A program made the translations under genes and the position numbers. A DNA stretch of 61,282 nt from a virus. Below are positions 3,756 to 18,348 of the stretch, one piece after another (within the stretch, counting starts at the first letter, position 1; every line of letters begins with the position of its first letter). The notes below the pieces were generated by a model. The model saw only the letters and a list, made by a program, of their open reading frames with translations. It made no database searches and was not told the origin of the DNA. The DNA is taken from positions 1-61,282 of the IMG/VR virus record IMGVR_UViG_3300037193_000488; one strand, given 5' to 3'.

Positions 3756-4173
3756 GCTCTTTCTCCCACTCTGCAAAGGATTTGCCGTACTCCCGGAGCA
3801 CGAGACCACCTTGCATGACATGGCCCCGGACCTCCGGCGGCATGCCCCGGAACTCGTGCTCATTCGGCCGGTGCCAGAGCCACAACGGCTTCTCCCGCAG
3901 ATGTTCCGGGACGGGACCACGGCCGTTGTTGGGATAGCTCGCGCTGATCATCTCCGCTTCACAGTGATCGAACTTGCAACCGAGGAACATCGGAGTCACG
4001 CCGGAGTGAACATCGATGGTGATGATGATGTGCTGCGGACGGCGGCGGCAGATGTACGCGTTGTAGCTCGGCGGCTGTGGACGGTTCCGCATCCACTTCA
4101 CCACATCGGCCGGGAGCTTGATGCGAGGTTCATCACCCTCGCCTTCGTTGATTTCCACCAGTTTCTGTGTCAC
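3742..4173 (-). CDS. Hypothetical protein, 143 aa
   Basis: A 143-aa soluble protein with a mixed core (YNAYICRRRPQHIIITIDVHSG) and a basic/acidic helical end (EYGKSFAEWEKEHAKA). It overlaps the resolvase gene before it by 4 bases. No family is recognised. Because it is co-translated with a junction resolvase it may act in DNA processing, but only position supports that. Confidence 0.75.
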   Translation of the reverse strand: MTQKLVEINEGEGDEPRIKLPADVVKWMRNRPQPPSYNAYICRRRPQHIIITIDVHSGVTPMFLGCKFDHCEAEMISASYPNNGRGPVPEHLREKPLWLWHRPNEHEFRGMPPEVRGHVMQGGLVLREYGKSFAEWEKEHAKA

Positions 4174-4757
4174 AGGAGTTCACCCTTCAAGTTGAAGATA
4201 TGGGGCCACGCCCTCCCGCGTAGCTCCGGTTGCTGCCGGCAACGGTCCAAGAACAAACCAGCGTGCCGTACGCCGTCGCGTGCGTGATCCTTCCCGACCA
4301 CCCACCAAGGCTGGCCCAAGCTCTTGGCGCGCTTGAGCCGGTCATCGGTCCACTTCGACTTCGCCTGCTCGGGAGTCTGCTTGAACAGGGGTCGCCCGGA
4401 GCCGTACAGATGCCACTCCATGCAAGCGTTGATCCGTTCCGGCTCCAGGAATTCCTCACTACTGTTGAACTTCCGCGTGGTCCAGCGCTCCCCGACCACG
4501 GCGCAGTCAGCCCACATGTCGATCAACTCCGATAGCTGATCGCACTGCTCAGGACGCGGGCCGGTGATCTCTCCGGCCGCAAAGTGCTTCAACGTCTGCG
4601 GGATCGGCTTCGTGGCGCGAGGATGCGGAGCCTTGTCGATGCGTTTCCCCAACAGTGCATGAGGATCCACACACATCACGCTCCAGCCGGTGGTACCTCC
4701 CGGATCATAGGCCGTTACCACGGCCCACCCCGTTGTCTCCGACGTGTACCGCGTCAT
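4170..4757 (-). CDS. RuvC-like Holliday junction resolvase
   Basis: A 195-aa protein with the RNase H-like plan of phage RuvC proteins. It has DPGGTTGWSV near residue 18 (first acidic residue and the glycine loop), an internal VGERW (second acidic residue) and a C-terminal DHARDGVRHA (the D/H signature). These proteins cut branched DNA, and phages use them to clear junctions and forks before packaging. It sits in a run of coupled short genes downstream of the nucleotide-metabolism cluster. Full length for the family. Confidence 0.85.
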   Translation of the reverse strand: MTRYTSETTGWAVVTAYDPGGTTGWSVMCVDPHALLGKRIDKAPHPRATKPIPQTLKHFAAGEITGPRPEQCDQLSELIDMWADCAVVGERWTTRKFNSSEEFLEPERINACMEWHLYGSGRPLFKQTPEQAKSKWTDDRLKRAKSLGQPWWVVGKDHARDGVRHAGLFLDRCRQQPELRGRAWPHIFNLKGELL

Positions 4758-6014: not shown

Positions 6015-7043
6015 TCAGCCGATCCGGTGGTGAATCGGCTTGAATCGGCGGTTGTCTTCCTTCGCCCAGGGGAGGGTGCATTGGCCCTCAACCTTCTCCC
6101 AGCCCTGGAACTCACACACCTTCGTCTTCTCACAGGTGATCTTGACGTACGGCTCCAACCAGGGATGGGCATCGAGCAAGACGCGCCGACATTCCCGCAT
6201 CACGGCCGAGATCTCCCACTGGAACATGTGGCATGCGCGGTACGCGTAGACGTTGAGGAATTCGCGCACCGGGTACTCCAACATGATGAAGTTCGTGGTG
6301 CCCTCCGGGAGGATGAACCGGGCATCCTGGTAACTGATGTCGGCTTCACAGGCCGCGCGGTAGGCCGCATGGCTGGTCATGATGGCATCGATCCACTTCA
6401 GCCGAACATCCGGCTTCCTCCACACCGACTCCGGCATGCGCATCTCCGGGTGATCGCCCATGTAGGAAGCGCGTTGCGACTGTTGGTGGAACGCGGCGCG
6501 ACGGCTACGCACCAGTTGATGCGTACAAGTCCGCGATACACCAGCCACGGCGAAGACGATGGTCTGCGACTCCAGGGCCGTTTGGAGACCACCCTTCAGC
6601 ATCTCCTCCCAGTCCTTGTCCGGCTCCAACGGGTCCACGAAACCCCACACCGTAGTGCCACGCTTGTCGTGCTTGTGGCGCTTGTGCTGTTCGCATTCGT
6701 CGCTGGGGTCCTCGGTCAACGCCACACAGCCTTCCCAGGAGCCCATGATGTCGATGCCGATCGTTGCCCGCGTCGCAGCGGACAGGACGCGCCGGAAGTT
6801 CTCCTCATCGATGCCCTGCACCAGCACCGCTTCGACGTTGTCAGAGCCGACCTGGATGGTGTTGTTGTCATACGGCGAGATGTGATGCCCGTCGTTCTTC
6901 GAGTGCCGGTTGAAGGCGACGTCACGCGTCAGCACGTCGTGCTCCGCAACGTCCTCGTCCAACCGGCTAGCGGCCGGGATGTAGTGCCCATCTTCCTTCC
7001 CTCGATGGACAACCAGCCACTCGGGGATGAATACTTGGTTCAT
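6015..7043 (-). CDS. thyX: Divergent ThyX-type flavin-dependent thymidylate synthase
   Basis: A 342-aa protein. The ThyX signature RHRX7S appears as R179-S180-R181-X7-S189, so only the His is changed. Downstream, YQDARFILP matches the E-D-A-R...L-P part of the family, and FQWEI matches the conserved Q-x-E-I. The usual N-x-R in the region near residue 255 is not obvious. ThyX methylates dUMP using FAD and methylene-tetrahydrofolate. The extra N-terminal 130 residues and the altered motif leave open a modified pyrimidine product. The gene overlaps the MazG-like gene by 4 bases. Confidence 0.75.
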   Translation of the reverse strand: MNQVFIPEWLVVHRGKEDGHYIPAASRLDEDVAEHDVLTRDVAFNRHSKNDGHHISPYDNNTIQVGSDNVEAVLVQGIDEENFRRVLSAATRATIGIDIMGSWEGCVALTEDPSDECEQHKRHKHDKRGTTVWGFVDPLEPDKDWEEMLKGGLQTALESQTIVFAVAGVSRTCTHQLVRSRRAAFHQQSQRASYMGDHPEMRMPESVWRKPDVRLKWIDAIMTSHAAYRAACEADISYQDARFILPEGTTNFIMLEYPVREFLNVYAYRACHMFQWEISAVMRECRRVLLDAHPWLEPYVKITCEKTKVCEFQGWEKVEGQCTLPWAKEDNRRFKPIHHRIG

Positions 7044-7720
7044 GCGCGCTTGCCTCCGTGCTTGTTTGGACGGGTGGAGTTGTAGGCCTGCTTGAGCAGG
7101 ACCTCTTGCCCTAGGTCGATGCCGTACTCATCGGCCGCGTCACCGACCCGGATGACGATGTCTGCGAGTTCGGCCGGTACGCCTTCTGGCTTGAGGAACC
7201 CGGCATGCACCAGTTCCGTTGCGACATCCTCCGGTAGCTCGGTTGCGCCGACAAACCCGCCATCGCCGCGCCGGTCAAGGACACGCGCCCAACTCACCAC
7301 GTCGAAGCCCGCACGGAGATCCAAAAGCTGCTGCGGCTCCGGCCGGTACTTCGCCACCGAGTAGTACCGCTCCGACTCGTGGTGGTTGTCGCGCCACTCC
7401 TCCAGGGCTTCGCTGGCTTCGCTGTGGATGAGAGCGATGACCTCACCAAAGGACCTGTCCGCTTCCCACCAGCCCTTCTCATGGGCCGTCGCGTTGGAAC
7501 GGCGGCCGATCTCGCTGATGCCCGGGTCGCCCATCGCCTGCGAGGTCCAACCGGCCGACCAACCGGCGCTCCGTCCCGCTTCGAGCGCGTTGGCGAACCA
7601 TCCCAGAATGTGAGCGAACTCATTCGGCGTAACATCTCGGGATGATGTGGCTTTGAGGAATTCTTGAGTCCACTTCTGTGCGTTGGTTCCCATTTCCTCA
7701 AGCAGTTTGCCATCAGTCAT
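7040..7720 (-). CDS. MazG-like nucleotide pyrophosphohydrolase
   Basis: A 226-aa all-alpha protein. FGEVIALIHSEASEALEEWR gives the first acidic metal-binding helix (ExxxE type), and ELADIVIRVGDAADEYGIDL gives the second (ExxD). This is the MazG/dUTPase-like NTP-pyrophosphohydrolase plan. Such enzymes hydrolyse (d)NTPs to NMPs, and phage versions may drain host or non-canonical dNTPs or ppGpp. An insertion of about 50 residues (HHESERYYSVAKYRPEPQQ...) separates the two acidic helices. It is coupled directly to the ThyX gene, which fits a shared role in nucleotide pools. Confidence 0.8.
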   Translation of the reverse strand: MTDGKLLEEMGTNAQKWTQEFLKATSSRDVTPNEFAHILGWFANALEAGRSAGWSAGWTSQAMGDPGISEIGRRSNATAHEKGWWEADRSFGEVIALIHSEASEALEEWRDNHHESERYYSVAKYRPEPQQLLDLRAGFDVVSWARVLDRRGDGGFVGATELPEDVATELVHAGFLKPEGVPAELADIVIRVGDAADEYGIDLGQEVLLKQAYNSTRPNKHGGKRA

Positions 7721-8112: not shown

Positions 8113-8270
8113 CTCCACACCGCCCCACAGACGCAGAAGTGATCCCGTAGGATGCGCTTCTGTTGTGGGTGTTGGCCCGGTCGCGCATGTTGGTCGGTCA
8201 TGCAGCAACGATGGAGATGCCGCTTCGCGCCCCATGTATAGGCCGGACACCACCGGAAGCTATGACTCAT
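8109..8270 (-). CDS. Small Cys/His-rich (zinc-ribbon-like) protein, 53 aa
   Basis: A 53-aa frame (MSHSFRWCPAYTWGAK...). Its ATG lies within the last codons of the DNA polymerase gene, and its stop overlaps the next start as ATGA. It holds HLHRCC and, later, HFCVCGAVW, a spacing typical of very small metal-binding proteins. It exactly fills what would otherwise be an empty stretch, which supports it as real. Function unknown. Confidence 0.65.
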   Translation of the reverse strand: MSHSFRWCPAYTWGAKRHLHRCCMTDQHARPGQHPQQKRILRDHFCVCGAVWR

Positions 8271-11200
8271 CTTCGTCTTCCTCCTCCAACAACTCATCGG
8301 GGTCGATGCACCACGCGGCCTTGACGTGGATGCCTGTTCCGAAGCCTTTACGCTTCATGCCCTTCACAATCAGCACGTCGTGGTTCATGGTCATGTTCCA
8401 CAGGGCTTCCTCGAAGCGTGGGAAGTCGTACCGGCTGAACCGGACGTACACGAGTACATCCGTGTCATCGAAGCACTCAACCGTCATCTTCTTGGAGAGG
8501 TGTGGATCCTTGATTGCGGCCGTGACCTCAGCCATGCTCTTACCCGTACGTGCCCGCTCATCCTCAATGACGTCTTGCGGGTTGCGCTTCTGCGGGATGC
8601 CGATGTAGGTCACCGCGACATCACCAGCGTCCGTGGGGATTTCAGCACCCCGGTAGTTCGGCGTGGGCAGCGGGATCATCCGGCCCTTCATGTCCACATC
8701 CATCAACCGGCCGCTAGTGATCGCCTTCCGTACCCGCTCCAGCACGAGGTCAACGCGGTGGATCTGGAACGGGTCCTTGCTCGCAGCCCAGCTTGCATAC
8801 TTGGGCGCGGTCTTCTCGCCGATGCCCTTGACCCGGATGAGTTCGTTCCAGTTCTTGAACGGCCCGCGCTCCTCCCGGTCGGCAATGATGGTCTCGGCCA
8901 TCTTGATCCCCACGCCAGGGATCTGCGAGAAACCGGCTCGGATCTTGTCGCCGTCCGAGGACCATGTCACACCCGCCTTGTTGAGGTCGGGCGGAACGAT
9001 CTCCAACCCGTGCTTCATCGCGTCCCGCATGAGGATGTACTGTTGCTTCTCAAACTTCGCGAGACATGCTGCATAGAAAGCCTGGGGGTGATGGACTTTC
9101 AACCACATCTGCCAATAGGCCAGGGCCGAGTAGCTGACACAGTGCGACTGGTTGAAGGCGTACTGACCGGCCGTCACCAACCGCTTCCAGATCGTGTCGG
9201 CAAGGTTGCGGTCAACACCATACCGCTTCGCACCCTCCACGAACTCCTCGAAGCGCTTCTGGAACGCTCCAACACCCCGCTTGAGGGAGATGATGCGCCG
9301 GATCTCCTGGACATGTGTCCATGGCAACCCGCCCATCTCCTTGATGATTCGGAGGATCTGCTCCTGGTAGATGATCGTGTTGTAGGTATGGTGGGTGATC
9401 TCATCAATGAGCGGGTGTAGATGGTCAGGCTTCTTCCGGCCGTGCTTGATGTCGATGTAGTCGGACGTTGAGCCCGAGTGAAGCGGGCCGGGACGGGAGA
9501 GCGCGTTGATGTCACACAACTCCAGGAAGTTGTCCGGCTTCACATCCCCGTTGACGATCTTGGTTGCACCACCGCCGAACTGGAAGATGCCGGACACGTC
9601 ATTCCGACGGAACGCGTCCAAGACCTCCGGGTCGTCAAACGGTAGGTGGTACAAGTCATCCAGCGGCATCCCGATCTGCTTGATGGCACGGGCGATCATG
9701 CCCATGGTCGTGAGTCCGAGGAAGTCAGCCTTCATCATGTTGAGGTATTCGGCATCGTACTTGTCCACCGATACCACGCGCCGGACGTTCCCGTGCTTGT
9801 CAGCCCGCGTGTACATCGCGACGTTGTTGTTGATGGGTTCGTTCGCGATCACAAGACCGGCCGCATGCACAGACATCGACTTGTAGTTGCCTTCAAGCCG
9901 CAACGCGTATTCCATCTCCGGGTGCTTGTCAAAGACGGCTCGCGCGGCCGGGAACATGTCCACGGTGTCCTCAATCGAGGAGTCCAGACGGGAGTCACCA
10001 CCGGACCTCTCAATCATCAGGTCCTTGACCGGCTGGATCTCCCATGGTGGGATGTTGTGAGCACGCGCTACATCATCCATACTGTTCTTGCCACGGTACT
10101 TGGTGTAGGTACCAATGTTGGCCACCCGGTCTGCGCCATAGAGGTCAACGATGTGCTCGACAAGTTCGTGTCGCCGGTCATCATCGAAGTCCAGGTCAAC
10201 GTCCGGGAGGTCGGTGCGGTTGATGTCGATGAACCGCTCAAACAGCATGTTGGGGAATGGAATGGGATCGATCTCGGTGATGCGCAGGAGGTAGCAGACC
10301 AACGAAGCTGCGGCGGAACCACGGGCCGGGCCGACCGGCAACTCACGGTCCTTACACCAGCGCACCGCATCAGACAACATGAGGAAGTAGTCCACGAAAC
10401 CCTTGTCGATAATGAGTTCCATCTCATACTTCACACGTTCGTTGTACTTCTTGCGGTTGGCCCGCATGTGAGCGTTAGTCCGCCAGCGATACCGCCACCC
10501 ATCGCGCAGCCATTGCCAGATCAGTTCCTTGTTGTCCTTTACCCCACGAGGCAAGGGGAACTTCAACATCTCCATCTTCGGGAGTACAACGTTGCATCGC
10601 GCCGCGATCTCGGCCGTAGAGGCGAACGCTTGCGATGCTTGTGCCCGGGTCAGGCCGGTACCTTGGAGCCGTTCCATCACGATCTTGTCAGAGGACGGCG
10701 GGCACAGACGAATGTCATATTCCCAAGACGACTCCGTGGTGTCGACTGTACCACCGCCACGACCGGCCGTGTGGAGAATGACTTGCATCTTGTTGTCATC
10801 TGGCAACGGATAGTGGCAATCTGCGGTCGCGACGATCGGGATGTCCAGCTTGCGAGCCGCCTGCGCGAACCACGGGTTGAGGTTCCGCGTCCGCTCAAGC
10901 TCTGGAAACATCTGAGTCTCGACGTAGTACCGGTCACCAAAGATGCGCTTGTAACTCTTCATGACTGCAAGGGCTTCCCGCTCATCGCCCTTCTCCCGGC
11001 CCTTGCCTCCGAGCAGCGTACAGGAGAGATGCGAGTCTGCGCAGCCGGAGAGCGCGATGATTCCCTCAGAGTGCTCCTTGAGCCACTTGCCGTGGACGGT
11101 TGGCCACTGGTAAAAGCCTTCCGCCCACGACTTCGTGACGATCCTCATGAGGTTGCGGTATCCCTCCTGCGTCTCGGCTAGCAACGTCAAATGCCACTTA

Positions 11201-11442
11201 CGACGGTTGCCAAGCTCCCGCATGTTCTCCGGGGCGCAGTAAGCCTCCAACCCAAAGATGGGCTTGATGCCGACCGCATTTGCCTCCTTCTCCAGTTGAA
11301 CATGGGACGAGACGTTGCCGTGCTCGGTGAGAGCCTGTGCCGGCATCTCAAGCTCGGCTGCCCGAGCTACATGATCCTTGACCGGCCCGAAGCCGTCCAT
11401 GTAGCTGTAGGTGCTGTGGTGGTGGAGGGATACGTACTTCAT
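8260..11442 (-). CDS. dnaE: DNA polymerase III alpha subunit (DnaE type)
   Basis: A 1,060-aa replicative polymerase. The PHP domain starts at once (LHHHSTYSYMDG at 6-17, ALTEHGN near 40), and its histidines look intact, so it may keep metal-dependent proofreading. The C-family palm has GPARGSAAAS (371-380) and the catalytic triad in PDVDLDFDDDRR (413-424). A helix-hairpin-helix region (GVGIKMAETI, VKGIGEKTAP) and a C-terminal OB-like domain follow. It is slightly shorter than cellular DnaE, and no separate clamp or clamp loader is visible in the genome. It would extend DNA together with the primase/helicase encoded upstream. Confidence 0.95.
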   Translation of the reverse strand: MKYVSLHHHSTYSYMDGFGPVKDHVARAAELEMPAQALTEHGNVSSHVQLEKEANAVGIKPIFGLEAYCAPENMRELGNRRKWHLTLLAETQEGYRNLMRIVTKSWAEGFYQWPTVHGKWLKEHSEGIIALSGCADSHLSCTLLGGKGREKGDEREALAVMKSYKRIFGDRYYVETQMFPELERTRNLNPWFAQAARKLDIPIVATADCHYPLPDDNKMQVILHTAGRGGGTVDTTESSWEYDIRLCPPSSDKIVMERLQGTGLTRAQASQAFASTAEIAARCNVVLPKMEMLKFPLPRGVKDNKELIWQWLRDGWRYRWRTNAHMRANRKKYNERVKYEMELIIDKGFVDYFLMLSDAVRWCKDRELPVGPARGSAAASLVCYLLRITEIDPIPFPNMLFERFIDINRTDLPDVDLDFDDDRRHELVEHIVDLYGADRVANIGTYTKYRGKNSMDDVARAHNIPPWEIQPVKDLMIERSGGDSRLDSSIEDTVDMFPAARAVFDKHPEMEYALRLEGNYKSMSVHAAGLVIANEPINNNVAMYTRADKHGNVRRVVSVDKYDAEYLNMMKADFLGLTTMGMIARAIKQIGMPLDDLYHLPFDDPEVLDAFRRNDVSGIFQFGGGATKIVNGDVKPDNFLELCDINALSRPGPLHSGSTSDYIDIKHGRKKPDHLHPLIDEITHHTYNTIIYQEQILRIIKEMGGLPWTHVQEIRRIISLKRGVGAFQKRFEEFVEGAKRYGVDRNLADTIWKRLVTAGQYAFNQSHCVSYSALAYWQMWLKVHHPQAFYAACLAKFEKQQYILMRDAMKHGLEIVPPDLNKAGVTWSSDGDKIRAGFSQIPGVGIKMAETIIADREERGPFKNWNELIRVKGIGEKTAPKYASWAASKDPFQIHRVDLVLERVRKAITSGRLMDVDMKGRMIPLPTPNYRGAEIPTDAGDVAVTYIGIPQKRNPQDVIEDERARTGKSMAEVTAAIKDPHLSKKMTVECFDDTDVLVYVRFSRYDFPRFEEALWNMTMNHDVLIVKGMKRKGFGTGIHVKAAWCIDPDELLEEEDEDES

Positions 11443-11625: not shown

Positions 11626-11925
11626 CTACTCCGGTAGCTTCATCATCTCATCGTCCAACGCCGCCAACATCGCGCCGTAGTTGATGAGATCATCCATGGA
11701 CTCCTTGTGACCGGTCTTCCAGTTCGCCGAGTACCGCGTGAGCTTCACGATGATGAGCTCAAGCAAATGCCAGCGGGTGTGGTCTTCCTCGGTCACGAGA
11801 TGCACACCATTCGGGAACAAGGCTTCGGTCACCTTGCCCACGATCAGGTATGCATCCTGGTAGACGGCGTTGCGGTCCTCGAAGACCGATGCTGCCTCGC
11901 GCAGCTTGCCGGGGATGTCAGCCAC
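11626..11925 (-). CDS. DUF6378-like phage protein
   Basis: A 99-aa protein beginning at GTG (VADIPGKLREA), overlapping the preceding stop by 8 bases. The pattern AASVFEDRNAVYQDAY...HLLELIIVKLTRYSANWKTGHKESMDDLINYGAMLAAL matches a small phage family in which RxxxYG/D, K-x-x-R and H-x-D-S-x-x-D-x-x-N/G-Y-A are conserved. The family is widespread in phages. Its role is unknown, although the fold resembles MazG-like helical bundles. Confidence 0.75.
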   Translation of the reverse strand: MADIPGKLREAASVFEDRNAVYQDAYLIVGKVTEALFPNGVHLVTEEDHTRWHLLELIIVKLTRYSANWKTGHKESMDDLINYGAMLAALDDEMMKLPE

Positions 11926-12421
11926 GGTCCAGCCGCTCGATGATCTTGAAGAACAGGCCGAGACGGTTGTAGGTGTCATAGATCGTGTAGCGGTAGTGGC
12001 GGTTGTGCTCGGCCTGGAACGGGTTGGAATGCGTCTGAGTCACCAGCTGCTGGATGATCGGCGCATCGACCCGAGGCACATCCGCCTTGCCGACGAAGTG
12101 CGAGCCGATGTGGCACATACGGCCACCCGGCACAGCGGCCTTGTCGAGGTAGTTCGGACCGGAAAGGTAGCGGAGGATCTCCACCTCATGCTCCAGCGCG
12201 TAGTTGAACTGGAGCTTGGCGATGTTGGTGACGTCCTCGCCGAAGCCGCGCACGAAGCCCTTGGCCGTGACGGTGTCTTCGATCCAATCGCCCTTGTCCA
12301 ACTTGAGGAACTGCTTGATGAACTTCTCGTCATCATCCGACCGGGCACAGAACGCCAACTGATCGATGGTGATGTTGCCGGCCAGCGGGGCCAGGTAGTC
12401 CAGGGATCGTAATTCGTTCAC
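11918..12421 (-). CDS. Conserved-looking protein of unknown function, 167 aa
   Basis: A 167-aa soluble protein. It has a central stretch RMCHIGSHFVGKADVPRVD followed by NRHYRYTIYDTYNRLGLFF, with His, Asp and Tyr positions that look like a binding or active site. I do not recognise the family. It sits between the short-chain dehydrogenase and the DUF6378-like gene and is coupled to the latter, so it may act on the same small molecule as the redox enzymes. Confidence 0.7.
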   Translation of the reverse strand: MNELRSLDYLAPLAGNITIDQLAFCARSDDDEKFIKQFLKLDKGDWIEDTVTAKGFVRGFGEDVTNIAKLQFNYALEHEVEILRYLSGPNYLDKAAVPGGRMCHIGSHFVGKADVPRVDAPIIQQLVTQTHSNPFQAEHNRHYRYTIYDTYNRLGLFFKIIERLDRG

Positions 12422-12422
12422 T

Positions 12423-13193
12423 TCACTTACCTCCGGTGATCTCGATGTTGGAGCCGGTCAGATACTCCGGCCCGAGCAGGGTGTGCAAGATGAGGTCGGC
12501 AACCTCCCATTTCGTGCCGCGTCGGCCGATGGGGATCTGCTGCCGTTCGTAATCCAGCTGCTGTTCGCGCGTCCAGCCGCGCTGCCGCATGACCTCCCGG
12601 TCGATGACATCAGTCATGGGAGTGTCATCCATGATCCCGGGCGAGACGGCGTTGACGCGGACGAACGGCGATAGCTCCCGGGCAGCAACCCGTACGGCTT
12701 GGACGAGAGCGGCCTTGCTGGCGCAGTACGTGATCGATCGGCGCATCGGTACCCGAGCCGCATCCGAAGCCACAGCAACCACGTTCGTACGGGCCTGTGG
12801 CCGGACGTTGAGAGCACCACCGCCCGGGTAGTACACCTGGGCAATGGCCCGCATGAGACGGATGAAGCCCATGACGTTGACGTTGAACGTCTGGTACATG
12901 TTGACTTCGTCCACATCCACGATCGCATCGAGGATGTTGATTCCCGCGCAGTAGACGATGTCCACGCCGGTATCCGGCGATGTCTTGCGGACCGTGCTCA
13001 GGAACTGGACCAGCTTCTCCTGGTTGCCTACGTCCACCGAGGTGTCCGTGGTGATGATCTGCTTGTAGTCCAGTTCCTCGCTAGCGGTCTGGGCGACGGC
13101 TATGCCGAGATTGTTGCCCATGGCCCCAATCACCCAGAGTGGCCGCTTGAGTTCCGGCTCCACGCTCGGACGCTCCTCCAAGTTACCGGCCAT
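12423..13193 (-). CDS. Short-chain dehydrogenase/reductase
   Basis: A 256-aa classical SDR. The cofactor loop GAMGNNLG (23-30), YCAGIN (81-86, NAG-like), the catalytic Ser in VASDAA (143) and Y156-CAS-K160 are all present, with VNAVSPG after the active site. So it should bind NAD(P)H and reduce or oxidise an alcohol/carbonyl. The substrate cannot be read from sequence. Phage-encoded SDRs are uncommon; here it is coupled with an FAD oxidoreductase, a phosphatase and unknown proteins. Confidence 0.85.
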   Translation of the reverse strand: MAGNLEERPSVEPELKRPLWVIGAMGNNLGIAVAQTASEELDYKQIITTDTSVDVGNQEKLVQFLSTVRKTSPDTGVDIVYCAGINILDAIVDVDEVNMYQTFNVNVMGFIRLMRAIAQVYYPGGGALNVRPQARTNVVAVASDAARVPMRRSITYCASKAALVQAVRVAARELSPFVRVNAVSPGIMDDTPMTDVIDREVMRQRGWTREQQLDYERQQIPIGRRGTKWEVADLILHTLLGPEYLTGSNIEITGGK

Positions 13194-13653
13194 CCTTGTT
13201 TCCCTCCCTGATCAGATCAATTGCCAACAGTGCATGGCCGATGAGCGACATGAGCGTCTGCTCGACTTCGCCGACCGTGACCGACTGCGGGTTGCGCCGG
13301 TCCCAGATCATCCGCTTGAGCTTGGCGGTGTCGTGGTAGATCTCGGAGAACTGTCCTTGCGCACCCAGGGCCTGATCGGTGTCCTGGTACTGCTGTTGCA
13401 TCCGCAGGAACTCCCGTAGCGATTCGGCGGCAGGACCCCGCAGGATGTTCAACGTTCGTTCGCGGACGGGGATGTTCACCACGACATGGACCGTTGGAAC
13501 GTATGCATCGATGTCGTTGGCGTAGTCCGGTCCTTCCCGATCCGGCTTCGCCTTGGTCTGCTCCGCCACCGACCCCGGCCGCCAGGCGTTGATGGGGTCC
13601 GAGTTGCCCGGGTCGATGTGCCCACGGTCGTTGAGGTCAGGATCTCTTGCCAC
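13183..13653 (-). CDS. Hypothetical protein, 156 aa
   Basis: A 156-aa protein with a disordered start (MARDPDLNDRGHIDPGNS...) and a helical second half (ESLREFLRMQQQYQDTDQAL..., EVEQTLMSLIGHALLAIDLI). It overlaps the SDR start by 11 bases and the phosphatase end by 17, so it is part of the same transcript. No family recognised. Confidence 0.75.
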   Translation of the reverse strand: MARDPDLNDRGHIDPGNSDPINAWRPGSVAEQTKAKPDREGPDYANDIDAYVPTVHVVVNIPVRERTLNILRGPAAESLREFLRMQQQYQDTDQALGAQGQFSEIYHDTAKLKRMIWDRRNPQSVTVGEVEQTLMSLIGHALLAIDLIREGNKDGR

Positions 13654-14266
13654 GGTAGTTCTCCAACTCCTGCTCGATGATGTCGGGTAGTTGCTTGAGG
13701 TGGGTGATGATGTGATCGGTCTTGAAGTACCAGCCTTCGGTGTAGGGCTGTTGCCTCAGCACGGTACGCATGCCAAGGTTGATCGCCTGATCCAGCATCG
13801 GCGGAAGGTCATCGACCACGAGCAGGGCTCGATTGCCAACAGCCTTGTGCAAATCCCGATACTTGTGATCGCCGAACAGCAGGCCGTCATACTGGATGTT
13901 GTTCCTTCGTAGCCAATGGCGCGTATCAGGATCGATGTTGTCCAGCCGGAGGTAGGGCCGGGTCGTACAGATCCAGACCTGGCAACCGAGCTTCCGGGTC
14001 AACGCTGCGGCCTCAGCCGCTCCGTCGTATACCGGCATCGAGCGCTTGAGCCCTCCCTGGCGGAATGCCAACTTGCACTCACGATACGTCGCCTTGCTGA
14101 TGTGGAGGTACTTGTACAACGGCACCCCGTTGGTAACGGCGTACGGGTCGGGAAGCTGCTTCCCCAACCACTGCTCGGCGAAGCGGATGAAGTGTCCGTG
14201 GTAATCCCCCAGCGTTCCGTCGATGTCCAGGGCTACAACAGGCGCATCATGCCTTGGCCTTGGCAT
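13637..14266 (-). CDS. HAD-family phosphatase / 5'(3')-deoxyribonucleotidase-like
   Basis: A 209-aa HAD protein. Motif I is ALDIDGTLG (D14 and D16), motif II is in WICTTRPYL, and the C-terminal acidic motif is LLVVDDLP. The compact cap and YDGAAEAAALTRKLG resemble deoxynucleotidases that dephosphorylate dNMPs. The start at MPRPRHDA is supported by AAGGAGG nine bases upstream, and the gene overlaps the oxidoreductase by 20 bases. With MazG-like and ThyX enzymes elsewhere, a role in clearing unwanted nucleotides is reasonable; sugar-phosphate or polynucleotide 3'-phosphate are alternatives. Confidence 0.75.
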   Translation of the reverse strand: MPRPRHDAPVVALDIDGTLGDYHGHFIRFAEQWLGKQLPDPYAVTNGVPLYKYLHISKATYRECKLAFRQGGLKRSMPVYDGAAEAAALTRKLGCQVWICTTRPYLRLDNIDPDTRHWLRRNNIQYDGLLFGDHKYRDLHKAVGNRALLVVDDLPPMLDQAINLGMRTVLRQQPYTEGWYFKTDHIITHLKQLPDIIEQELENYRGKRS

Positions 14267-15065
14267 GCTCCAGAACCTCCTTGTATGCATGATGAGTCAA
14301 GTAGCCCTTCTGCCACTTGCCATACCGGCCGACATGGAGAACACCCGGCCAGCAATCACAATTCGTCTTCAGCGGCTTCGTGACGGCTGCCACGGACGGG
14401 ATCGGCGGCCGGATCTCCTCCGGCCACTCAATCGTCTTATGCCCATAGATGTTGGAGATCCTGTACCAGCTGGGGTTCTCCTTGCCGTTACAGATGACCG
14501 TGAACGGGTCACAGTCAAACCGGTCAAGGAAGATCCCCTGATCCGGAGCCTCACCCGCAGCCCAGATCGAAGTGCTGTTGAATTGGTGGCCTTCTGCGCA
14601 CAGGGCCGGACGCGGGATCGTGTTGATGATCAGGTCATACCGGCCATAGTGCGTCCGGCCCTCGGTCAGCATCCGCATCCCGGCCGGATCCATTTGGATC
14701 GGGATGACCATGGACTCGAAGTCCTCCCACAGCGCGTCGTACGTCTGCCGGATATCCCATGCATAGTGGGCTTCATCCAGTTCCTCTGCCGACACCGTAC
14801 CATCCCACATCGGCCCGTACACCTTGCGCCGGTACTCGTCCGGCTCACCCCGCAGCAGGTATTGAATTACCCGGCTCGCATTCGGCCATCGAGTGTCGGT
14901 GTAGCTCGGGATCGGTTCGTGGAGGTACTGCGCGCCGTACAGCGACGACTTGCCGTTGTTGGAGAAGATGTCGATGTTGCAACCGAACGGATTCCCTTGA
15001 GCCTCCACAACCGCTGCTGCGGACATCAAGCCAGCCGGTCCGCTACCGAGGATCGCAACCCTCAT
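14247..15065 (-). CDS. FAD/NAD(P)-binding oxidoreductase
   Basis: A 272-aa protein that opens with a Rossmann dinucleotide motif, AILGSGPAGLMSAAA (GxGxxG at 7-12), and ends with IWAAGEAP and HVGRYGKWQKGYLTHHAYKE. It is short compared with cellular monooxygenases and amine oxidases and lacks an obvious long substrate domain. Similar proteins occur in actinobacteriophages, without a known substrate as far as I recall. It is coupled (ATGA) to the gene before it and to the phosphatase after it. Confidence 0.75.
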   Translation of the reverse strand: MRVAILGSGPAGLMSAAAVVEAQGNPFGCNIDIFSNNGKSSLYGAQYLHEPIPSYTDTRWPNASRVIQYLLRGEPDEYRRKVYGPMWDGTVSAEELDEAHYAWDIRQTYDALWEDFESMVIPIQMDPAGMRMLTEGRTHYGRYDLIINTIPRPALCAEGHQFNSTSIWAAGEAPDQGIFLDRFDCDPFTVICNGKENPSWYRISNIYGHKTIEWPEEIRPPIPSVAAVTKPLKTNCDCWPGVLHVGRYGKWQKGYLTHHAYKEVLEHAKAKA

Positions 15066-15361: not shown

Positions 15362-15518
15362 CCTTGGTCTCCGTCTGCTGACGGGCAACGTGAGCTTCTT
15401 CGGCATCGTGCTTGTCCTTCCCGCAAGTCACGTCGGCTTCGGTGTGACGGCCGACCATGATGGTCGCCGTAGCATCACACTCATTCTCCTCCGGGAACAT
15501 CGCATCAGTATCCGGCAT
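15324..15518 (-). CDS. Small hypothetical protein, 64 aa
   Basis: A 64-aa acidic protein (MPDTDAMFPE..., ECDATATIMVGRHTEADVTC). It overlaps the end of the primase/helicase by 14 bases and the next gene by 38. DATATIMVGRHTEADVTCG looks like the helix-strand core of small phage proteins of unknown role. Confidence 0.6.
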   Translation of the reverse strand: MPDTDAMFPEENECDATATIMVGRHTEADVTCGKDKHDAEEAHVARQQTETKDGKRASIIYVWQ

Positions 15519-18348
15519 CTTCCAACTCCCTCAGTACTTCGGTCATCGCTGGCTCGAAGCGAACGGCACCGCGCGCTTCACGGCTGATCATTCTCCACTC
15601 CGTAAGGGATCTCATCACCAAGTTGGCCTCATCCTTTGTGAGCGCTGCCTGCTCCTCGAAGTCACGGGACCGGAACGTCTCCGCGCCAATGGCTCGGATC
15701 GCGGCGAGGACATGCGGCTCCGACTTGAGGAACTTTCGCACCTTTCCCTTGGAGTCTTGGGCTTCTTGTCGCGTCACCAGTACGCGCCGGGAGCTACGCA
15801 TGTAGCCCATAGCTTCCGATGAGTACACCGAGTCCAGGAACTCGACGGCACTGTCAACATGCATCTTCCTTACCCAGATCTTGTCGCCGTTCTTCGAGCA
15901 GGAGAACGTCCGTGCTGCCATGGCGACAGCGAGTCGGGCGATCTTGACCCTGATGTTCTCCACCTGTACTAGTGGAGGATCAGAGACGTAGCGGGAGCCC
16001 ATGTTGATCGCCGCATCGTACACGGCCTGCTCCGTACCACGGCCCCAGATCACTTGTTCCTTCTTCCGGCTCCACGCCCACATGATGAGGTTGTGGCAGG
16101 CATCCGACGTATAGCGATGCCGAACCGGCTTGTGCTCGGTGGAGTTGATGACATCCGCATCGACTTCGTTGTTTGCAACAGCCATGGCGAAGTCGAGACG
16201 GGCAATGTCCTCCGGGTTGTGGATGAGTTTCTTGATTGCCCGCAGTGCCGACCCCGGCAGGTCCGCGATACGCGTTCCATCGGCCGGGTTGGACAGCCAG
16301 ATGATCCTTGTACGGGCGCTGGTCTCGTCCTGGACGATCTTGCTGATGACGGCCTTGCCCTCCGAACGAACCGAGGACATGTCTCCGAGGATGTTGCGTT
16401 CCTTGACGGCCATAAGGCCAGACATCTCGTCTAACACCACGAGTCGCCGGTCATTGAGCGGGAGGACTCCCCAAGTCACCATCCAGCCGGACCGCGCGCC
16501 GGGTATGTTCTGCGCGCCGCCCACGAGACCGGCAAATGAGGCACCTTCACAGGACTTGATGACTCCGGCCCCGTAGTGGCTCCTCAGATGGGTTACGGCT
16601 TCGCTCTTGCCCGTACGGGTGTCACCGATGATCAACGCCTCTAGCCAGCCCTTCCGAACCGGCTTGTTGTCGAAGTCGAATTGCGTCACCGAGTGCCACA
16701 CCATGTCATAGGCGACATGCATGAGAGGTCTTCCGTAGATGTGCGTAACGTTGGACGCCATATCACGGGCGATCTCCATGCACTTCTGTAATGGTGTCTG
16801 TCCCTCCTTCACCTGGAAGCGCTTCAGTTGCTGCATGATCCGAGGAGTCATCTTGAACTCCTCCAGGTCCGTGTTCACCGTAGTCAGAGACCAGCCCATA
16901 AACGTACCACGTTGTGTCTGTGATTCTGCCACTTGCTTTCCGACGATCTTGACCGTCTGGTTGATGGGAGTGGAGTACGTACCAACGTTGAAGACCCGGC
17001 GCTGAATCGGAGTCTCGGTGTCCTCGCTGCGGTAGTCAAGCGACGGCGTGACCACAAGCTCCTCGATGTTGTAGGACTGGGTCACATCGAAGTCCACGAA
17101 CTTCTTGCACATTGCACCGGTGAGGTCGCCGTACAACTCCTTCACTCGCGTGTCACCGATGTTGACGAACTTCAACAGCTGCTCATCGTCGGGCTCAACC
17201 GTCTTCGTGATCTTCCCGTCATTCACCATCAACGGGCAAAGGTTGCATACGGCTCCGGCATTCATGCCACAGGTCGCCGTGATCGACTTCGGCGCGATGA
17301 ATGCGGGAGTCTGCTTGCCGACAATCATCACCGTAAGCTCCAACGGCTCAGCATAGTTGACGTTCTGCGACTCCTCGACGGTGACCGGCCGTCCGAACGT
17401 CGGCACCTCATGCTTCTCCTCCGGCACCCACAGCGGCATCGCCTCATCATGAAGCTGCCACAGGTCATCTGCGGTCCGGCCGTGCGTGACGAAGAAGTCG
17501 GTGATGTCCTCGCCGTCGCCCTCGTTGAACAACCTGATCCGGTAGCAAGCAGCAGCCACGTTCTTCATGTACTGTGTGGCTTTCATTGCACCGGCATCGC
17601 CCTGCTTGTCGTCGTCATACGCGAAGTACACGACCTTGCCCTTGAAGTACCGGGCCCACTCCGGCTTGAACACCGAAGCTCCGGACGTACCGGTGACGGC
17701 CGGAAAGCCATGCTGCATGGCAACTAGGCGATCCCACTCACCCTCCGTGTACATGACCTCATCGTGCTCGGCAAGCACCTCCAGTCCGTAGATCCGGCCG
17801 GAGCCGTGACCCGGACCCCAGCTGATCATCTTGTCCTTGTGGCTCCGAGCACGCGGGTTGTACCGGCGAACGTTGACAAGCTCGCCATCCTCATCATAGA
17901 TGGGGATCGTGAACCGCTGGCCATCCCAACCCACGAGGTACTTGCGCATGGTCTCGTCGGTCAGCCCGCGATCCTCGCTCACGTACTTGTGAGCGCGAGT
18001 CGAGCCCATCAAGGTCTTGTGCCAGAACTCCACCTGTTCCGCAGTAGGAAGTGGCTTCTTCTTGTCGATGGGTACGACATTGGAGTTGTCACCACGCACC
18101 TTCCGCGCCGCAGGGGATGCCATTCCCCGCTGCTCTCTCATCGCCCGGTACAGCGACCGGATTGTGCCTCCATGACCTCGTGACTGGCAATGCCAAACGC
18201 CAGCCTCGAAGTTCAGACTAGCACTCGGAGATTTACTGGTCTCCGGGTCCTCGTCAAGCGGACAGAATGCTCTCCACTCTCCGTCGGACGATGGCTTGCC
18301 AACAAGGAAACGTTCAAATGCACGAACGTACTTGTCAGCGTTTCTCAT
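15505..18348 (-). CDS. Primase/helicase: Toprim primase fused to MCM-like AAA+ helicase
   Basis: A 947-aa multidomain replication protein. The N-terminus is a degenerate CHC2-type zinc finger (C29-P-L-D32, C54...H59). A Toprim core follows, with MYTEGEWDRL (E202) and YFAYDDDKQGD (245-247). Residues about 330-480 form an OB-like part with a Cys cluster (CGMNAGAVCNLC). The motor has Walker A GDTRTGKS (575-582), Walker B RLVVLDEM (near 636-641) and a sensor Asn in IIWLSNPADG. The OB-plus-zinc arrangement before the AAA+ core, and the GDxxxxKS form, recall MCM helicases instead of DnaB. It is coupled (ATGA) to a separate zinc-finger gene. Confidence 0.85.
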   Translation of the reverse strand: MRNADKYVRAFERFLVGKPSSDGEWRAFCPLDEDPETSKSPSASLNFEAGVWHCQSRGHGGTIRSLYRAMREQRGMASPAARKVRGDNSNVVPIDKKKPLPTAEQVEFWHKTLMGSTRAHKYVSEDRGLTDETMRKYLVGWDGQRFTIPIYDEDGELVNVRRYNPRARSHKDKMISWGPGHGSGRIYGLEVLAEHDEVMYTEGEWDRLVAMQHGFPAVTGTSGASVFKPEWARYFKGKVVYFAYDDDKQGDAGAMKATQYMKNVAAACYRIRLFNEGDGEDITDFFVTHGRTADDLWQLHDEAMPLWVPEEKHEVPTFGRPVTVEESQNVNYAEPLELTVMIVGKQTPAFIAPKSITATCGMNAGAVCNLCPLMVNDGKITKTVEPDDEQLLKFVNIGDTRVKELYGDLTGAMCKKFVDFDVTQSYNIEELVVTPSLDYRSEDTETPIQRRVFNVGTYSTPINQTVKIVGKQVAESQTQRGTFMGWSLTTVNTDLEEFKMTPRIMQQLKRFQVKEGQTPLQKCMEIARDMASNVTHIYGRPLMHVAYDMVWHSVTQFDFDNKPVRKGWLEALIIGDTRTGKSEAVTHLRSHYGAGVIKSCEGASFAGLVGGAQNIPGARSGWMVTWGVLPLNDRRLVVLDEMSGLMAVKERNILGDMSSVRSEGKAVISKIVQDETSARTRIIWLSNPADGTRIADLPGSALRAIKKLIHNPEDIARLDFAMAVANNEVDADVINSTEHKPVRHRYTSDACHNLIMWAWSRKKEQVIWGRGTEQAVYDAAINMGSRYVSDPPLVQVENIRVKIARLAVAMAARTFSCSKNGDKIWVRKMHVDSAVEFLDSVYSSEAMGYMRSSRRVLVTRQEAQDSKGKVRKFLKSEPHVLAAIRAIGAETFRSRDFEEQAALTKDEANLVMRSLTEWRMISREARGAVRFEPAMTEVLRELEDAGY

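Follow-up and report, generated by a model that had tools for sequence, protein, structure and literature searches.

A divergent ThyX clade tied to a conserved gene cassette in tailed phages, a candidate source of modified pyrimidine nucleotides

The window, that is the whole stretch of DNA analysed, is a virus record from IMG/VR, 61,282 bases long. Besides other genes given in the table below, it encodes a primase-helicase, DnaE, Sak4, an exonuclease, an endolysin, tape measure, capsid and portal proteins and a terminase, and since replication, lysis, virion and terminase genes are all present, it represents a large part or the whole of a tailed-phage genome. A 947-aa protein (15505-18348, minus strand) combines Primase (Toprim) and MCM-like helicase domains. 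The gene at 4170-4757 (minus strand) is related to genes annotated as RuvC-like resolvases that lie downstream of ThyX in phages Onyinye and Dryad, and its relatives recur after ThyX at many loci. Searches with defence-system models gave no match. The original prediction addressed positions 6015-7720, a span that holds thyX and the MazG-like gene together.

Table. Genes of the thyX region, their positions in the window (strand in brackets) and the basis of assignment.
Feature	Position	Basis and remarks
Divergent ThyX-family enzyme, 342 aa	6015..7043 (-)	PF02511, E 3.9e-30
MazG-like pyrophosphohydrolase	7040..7720 (-)	phrog_3301, E 9.4e-34; not constant in the cassette
DnaE-type DNA polymerase III alpha subunit	8260..11442 (-)	DNA match to annotated DnaE of Streptomyces, Microbacterium and Gordonia phages
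phrog_4889-type domain, separate protein	11626..11979 (-)	phrog_4889, E 1.4e-20; start codon unsure
VOC (glyoxalase-fold) protein	11918..12421 (-)	methylmalonyl-CoA-epimerase-like predicted fold; relatives
SDR (short-chain dehydrogenase/reductase)	12423..13193 (-)	YCASK active-site motif; PF13561, E 3.3e-24
Small protein	13183..13653 (-)	overlaps neighbours on both sides; weak relatives Onyinye gp81 and Gibson gp53
HAD phosphatase	13637..14290 (-)	phrog_415, E 1.2e-19; 60% identity to Onyinye gp80
Rossmann flavoprotein	14247..15065 (-)	UDP-galactopyranose-mutase (UGM)-like predicted fold; phrog_8720, E 9e-87

The thyX product matches Pfam Thy1 over residues 145-295 with 105.5 bits against a cut-off of 24.8, and an E value this low marks the reading frame as a genuine gene, not one open by chance. 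Its best PHROG is phrog_35637 'thymidylate synthase', and PDB ThyX chains match it as well. Relatives annotated as 'ThyX-like thymidylate synthase' occur in Mycobacterium phage Onyinye (56%) and in Streptomyces phages such as Gibson and Dryad (43-46%), more distant ones in phages of Luteibacter, Xanthomonas, Pseudomonas (Pbunavirus) and E. coli (Wifcevirus), and profile scans of IMG/VR yielded more than 100 others; no bacterial homologue was confirmed in genome contigs. As predicted, the enzyme is a divergent ThyX, its motif THQLVRSRRAAFHQQSQRA being RSRX7S in place of RHRX7S. Where the motif could be read in the relatives it was RSR, RTR or RNR, the sole exception in the set being a Nitratidesulfovibrio phage (locus L019) with RHR. 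The pattern of the scan that started from ThyX contained VR[ST]R and thus preselects this motif; the scan that started from the VOC gene, with no selection on the ThyX motif, again returned R[STN]R wherever the motif was readable. On the NCBIfam thyX equivalog model TIGR02170 (cut-off 87.9 bits) the window protein scores 81.3 bits and the 13 divergent proteins tested score 69-93 bits, ten of them, including that of the window, below the cut-off, whereas nine RHR-type canonical phage ThyX reach 133-196 bits. A maximum-likelihood tree separates the divergent from the canonical proteins with support of 98/87, long branches and midpoint rooting limiting statements on ancestry. Since no relatives of the RHR-type L019 protein were confirmed in viral contigs, named phages served as the canonical control.

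Mapping of residues onto ThyX of T. maritima, whose numbering is used throughout, showed that the window protein has all residues of the dUMP site (R78, S88, R90, R147 and R174), and that His53, His79 and Tyr91 are replaced by Leu153, Ser180 and Ala192. The downstream N-x-R, correctly described beforehand as unclear, reads P258-V-R260: the Asn is gone (N163 to Pro) and the Arg is retained (R165). In T. maritima ThyX structures His53 forms a stack with the pteridine of folate or with the flavin and a hydrogen bond with Tyr91, mutation of which slows the oxidation of the flavin during methylation by a factor of about 1000 (PMC11940539); Ser88 and Tyr91 of ThyX were reported to be strictly conserved (PMC8316439). 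Among 128 distinct ThyX-like proteins in our alignment, many of them closely related and thus not independent of one another, Q75, R78, R90, R147 and R174 are invariant, R80 is present in 127 and position 88 is Ser or Thr in 119. His53, His79 and Tyr91 each occur in a single one of the 128, namely the RHR-type L019 protein, and His178 is missing from all of them, L019 included. This conservation indicates that the divergent clade has kept the nucleotide site and lost the folate and general-acid residues. Aeromonas phage Gekk3-15, which carries the cassette described below, retains RHR with Ile and Ala at positions 53 and 91, and in Microbacterium phage TinyMiny the motif is RQR and these two positions are Leu and Phe; as both still lack His53, the loss of this residue is the most constant mark of the clade, ahead of the change in RHR. 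Compared with canonical ThyX (PF02511/TIGR02170; T. maritima TM0449, M. tuberculosis ThyX, phage D29 gp48), the divergent enzyme thus shares the fold family, as judged by sequence, and the five invariant residues, but it differs by R[ST]R for RHR, the lack of His53 and Tyr91, a score below the equivalog cut-off and its place in a cassette.

The original prediction also noted about 130 extra residues fused in front of the core. The length is about right, but the extension holds no recognisable domain and is missing from the Wifcevirus/Pbunavirus branch, and we rejected a fused extra domain. A segment of about 70 residues at the N terminus, which includes DVAFNxHSxNDGxHxSP, is common to the actinophage-type relatives, a Cys/His-rich stretch of about 40 residues (approximately 101-142) is confined to the closest relatives of the window protein, and the Wifcevirus and Pbunavirus homologues begin at the core, lacking both parts. 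The extension is a clade-specific elaboration. At the C-terminal end, C304, C310 and C322 are conserved in 95 of the 128 relatives and could possibly form a metal site outside the known ThyX core.

The scan that started from ThyX gave 50 distinct loci at which both flanks of the gene reach 8 kb or more. DnaE was encoded at all 50, the flavoprotein at 49, the HAD phosphatase at 48, the SDR at 29, the phrog_4889 domain at 23, the VOC protein at 20 and the MazG-like protein at nine; the VOC gene was never found without the SDR gene (Fisher p 2e-7, kinship ignored). Starting from VOC, the divergent ThyX, SDR, phrog_4889 and DnaE were found at 29 of 29 loci (at least 5 kb per side, not dereplicated). 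All cassette families are present in the window. Two gene orders were observed: flavoprotein-ThyX-HAD/4889-SDR-VOC-DnaE in Wifcevirus-type phages, and flavoprotein-HAD-(SDR-VOC-4889)-DnaE-(MazG)-ThyX, the window having the second with every part (flavoprotein-HAD-SDR-VOC-4889-DnaE-MazG-ThyX). Within 10 kb per side, where the record allowed, no cassette gene was found near the canonical or near-canonical ThyX of nine phages; the flanks in HVTV-2, one of the nine, hold just a MazG-like gene, and the motif of another, S-CBS4, is poorly aligned (KHV).

The same ThyX clade and cassette families recur in Wifcevirus, Pbunavirus, Myosmarvirus, Carpasinavirus, Kylevirus, Krampusvirus, Onyinyevirus and BK-type Streptomyces phages. 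Wifcevirus, Myosmarvirus, Carpasinavirus, Kylevirus and Krampusvirus are among the groups with VOC-bearing isolates, and Bas101 has the cassette. Unlike the window, Pbunavirus R12, Onyinye and most BK-type loci lack SDR and VOC, and Wifcevirus-type loci differ from it in gene order. Annotation of these loci is piecemeal (thymidylate synthase, FabG, PNK, glyoxalase, oxidoreductase, hypothetical), and we found no published description of the cassette in the searchable literature. The cassette phage TinyMiny has an annotated glycosyltransferase gene, gp65 (locus L206, 14038-15114), in the interval from DnaE to the divergent ThyX; its product might transfer a sugar to a modified base, or have no connection with the cassette. 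In Onyinye (L011, 4064-7612) and TinyMiny (L206, 10314-13817) the DnaE annotation is split into two ORFs with a small gene between them, and two DnaE pieces were also seen in some IMG/VR relatives, possibly as the result of an intervening element.

The presence of a HAD phosphatase gene nearby had been correctly foreseen, and the prevalence of HAD among the loci makes it part of the cassette proper; the product is phosphatase-like, the Wifcevirus version matching the PNKP phosphatase domain. In Wifcevirus the phrog_4889 domain is fused behind the HAD domain, and the separate phrog_4889 protein of the window has 45-48% identity to the C-terminal domains of FoX7 and Bas101. The AlphaFold model of the flavoprotein (pLDDT 91.7) matched UGM 4dsg best (Z 15.5, rmsd 3.4, 255 of 272 residues), other GR2 flavoproteins giving Z of about 13; no sequence match to UGM was found. 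A profile alignment (96.3% probability, E 1.9e-9) shows it to be homologous to the Wifcevirus 'h2' family. The VOC model (pLDDT 91.8) matched the putative methylmalonyl-CoA epimerase 3gm5 (Z 12.3, rmsd 2.7, 130 residues), Pfam Glyoxalase_4 matched a VOC relative weakly (E 0.004), and the candidate metal ligands Q21, E79, E81 and H104 are invariant in 35 sequences, a fourth ligand position being variable. The models thus predict a UGM-like and a VOC fold, and a fold does not show function. The SDR keeps YxxxK; a role as pteridine or dihydrofolate reductase serving ThyX was considered and rejected, as the NCBIfam pteridine reductase score is far below its cut-off and the SDR matches are generic. 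The small protein has no Pfam match, and its similarity to Onyinye gp81 was found by blastp at E 2e-6.

A coupling of ThyX to MazG was part of the original prediction. The MazG-like gene does overlap the start of thyX by four bases (ATGA), and its product, which had no Pfam or NCBIfam match, also matches the MazG-type families phrog_5658 and phrog_9236. As a general link, however, the coupling was rejected, as nine of 50 loci have such a gene nearby. The phrog_4889 domain was tried as a MazG relative, and hhalign found nothing.

We further searched 20 phage genomes, 17 with the divergent and three with the canonical ThyX, for other genes of nucleotide metabolism. Each of the 20 has one Thy1 gene and none encodes ThyA (PF00303), all 17 divergent-ThyX genomes included, so that the idea of an additional thymidylate synthase encoded alongside was rejected; its absence is expected if the divergent ThyX still makes dTMP. 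Neither DHFR (PF00186) nor a dUTPase was found in a near-identical genome set of 20, and the phage dNMP kinase (PF21448) was absent from the cassette phages, its sole carrier being the canonical control Samora. A dCMP deaminase is encoded by all three canonical-ThyX actinophages versus two of the 17 divergent-ThyX genomes (Gibson and Yara). Among the window ORFs scanned we found no glycosyltransferase or other late DNA-modifying enzyme, and general libraries gave no annotation of a 5-hydroxymethyluracil DNA kinase or later enzyme. Dinoroseobacter phage vB_DshS-R5C (L214, 18282-20621), with a canonical RHR-type ThyX, has QueD- and QueC-like genes of the kind known from 7-deazaguanine modification.

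The suggestion that an unusual pyrimidine nucleotide is made here is partly supported by the sequence evidence, in a changed form: it is favoured by the loss of the folate/flavin site, the retention of the nucleotide site and the fixed accessory enzymes, the MazG part falls away, and the unit becomes the divergent ThyX clade together with a conserved set of biosynthetic genes next to the polymerase. We give about an even chance to the reading that a ThyX-derived flavoenzyme and the cassette make a C5-modified pyrimidine nucleotide, instead of or besides dTMP, for phage DNA. The enzyme, with its pyrimidine-nucleotide pocket intact and its folate/flavin pocket rebuilt, would work with the UGM-like flavoprotein and the HAD phosphatase, joined in many phages by the SDR, the VOC-fold protein and the phrog_4889 domain, the product would be inserted into phage DNA by the adjacent DnaE polymerase, and the modified DNA would probably confer resistance to host nucleases. 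FAD would still be used, the carbon donor would presumably not be methylene-tetrahydrofolate bound in the usual way, and the flavoprotein, SDR, VOC and HAD proteins may make or finish the donated group. In canonical ThyX a flavin-N5 carbinolamine alkylates C5 of dUMP, and free formaldehyde can be used (PMC8316439). As the formaldehyde is taken up in an adduct at flavin N5, the divergent enzyme could conceivably accept a different aldehyde-like donor; without the folate-stacking His and the Tyr acid, it could use a donor of its own or halt at a different product. The more specific idea, that the enzyme dispenses with canonical folate use and joins a cassette-made donor to C5 of the pyrimidine nucleotide, an undescribed route to modified DNA, we put forward tentatively and with more doubt than confidence.

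Phage pyrimidine modification is started by ThyA-type dUMP or dCMP hydroxymethylases in the SPO1-type hmdU and T4 hmC systems. The likeness lies in a thymidylate-synthase-like enzyme that would start the modification for accessory enzymes to complete; the difference is that the present route would use ThyX chemistry, in genomes lacking ThyA. A precedent for recruitment of a ThyX relative to an unusual C5-substituted pyrimidine nucleotide is PolB, the ThyX homologue of polyoxin biosynthesis, which acts on UMP; it belongs to a bacterial antibiotic pathway and is a distant sequence match to our protein (PDB 4p5a, E 1e-8). A ThyX-made modified phage base was not found in the searchable literature, which covers few subscription papers and preprints.

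Published phenotypes bear on the modified-nucleotide reading from both sides. Wifcevirus coliphages, which carry the cassette, show an as yet unexplained resistance to most of the restriction systems tried (PMC11990801). Against the reading, DNA of the Pbunavirus JG024 is cut by SacII (PMC3008698), although the site of this enzyme contains no T, and digestion of PB1-like phages was reported without comment (PMC4482731); in Pbunavirus R12 the divergent ThyX is present with no SDR or VOC nearby. Infection by vB_Eco4M-7 (PMC11074155) and by JG024 (PMC10913387) can be initiated with DNA synthesised outside the phage, which also counts against it and means that any modification is not needed for the start of infection. 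The absence of the PF21448 kinase weighs on the same side, and the cassette linkage could partly reflect shared descent of the replication region.

Such descent is central to the strongest alternative, a serious possibility that falls short of being probable, namely that the enzyme is a fast-evolving flavin-dependent thymidylate synthase that converts dUMP to dTMP with folate held otherwise, among ordinary genes of replication and nucleotide metabolism linked by descent. The clear PF02511 membership, the invariant nucleotide site, the single Thy1 gene without ThyA and the constant DnaE neighbourhood all suit it, but it leaves unexplained why His53, His79 and Tyr91 were lost together in a clade otherwise under strong selection, why ten of 13 proteins miss the TIGR02170 cut-off, why a constant flavoprotein and phosphatase set is never seen near canonical phage ThyX, and why dCMP deaminase occurs in all three canonical actinophages tested but in just two of the 17 divergent-ThyX genomes. 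The product might instead be a modified nucleotide or small molecule outside DNA, e.g. an analogue acting on host enzymes or signalling, as the folds of the UGM-like flavoprotein, SDR, VOC and HAD proteins suit small-molecule chemistry and late DNA-modifying enzymes were missing among the scanned window ORFs; we consider this unlikely in view of the constant position beside a DNA polymerase and the Wifcevirus restriction resistance. A catalytically dead nucleotide-binding scaffold or regulator, suggested by the loss of several active-site residues in the clade, is very improbable, because the invariant Q75 and arginines, with R80 and Ser/Thr88 nearly so, speak for an active pocket maintained by selection.

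ThyX is under study as a target for antibacterial agents, and phage therapy makes use of Pbunavirus and its relatives. A naturally occurring ThyX clade without the folate-stacking and general-acid residues would show how flavin chemistry is redirected. Cultured phages, among them Bas98-101, Onyinye, TinyMiny and JG024, allow immediate testing. If the cassette makes a modified base, it would be a candidate cause of the Wifcevirus restriction resistance and would provide a marker set to spot modified genomes. Should the reading of a new route to modified DNA hold, this route would account for the resistance of Wifcevirus and be widespread among phages of soil, freshwater and the sea, as well as among relatives of phages used in therapy.
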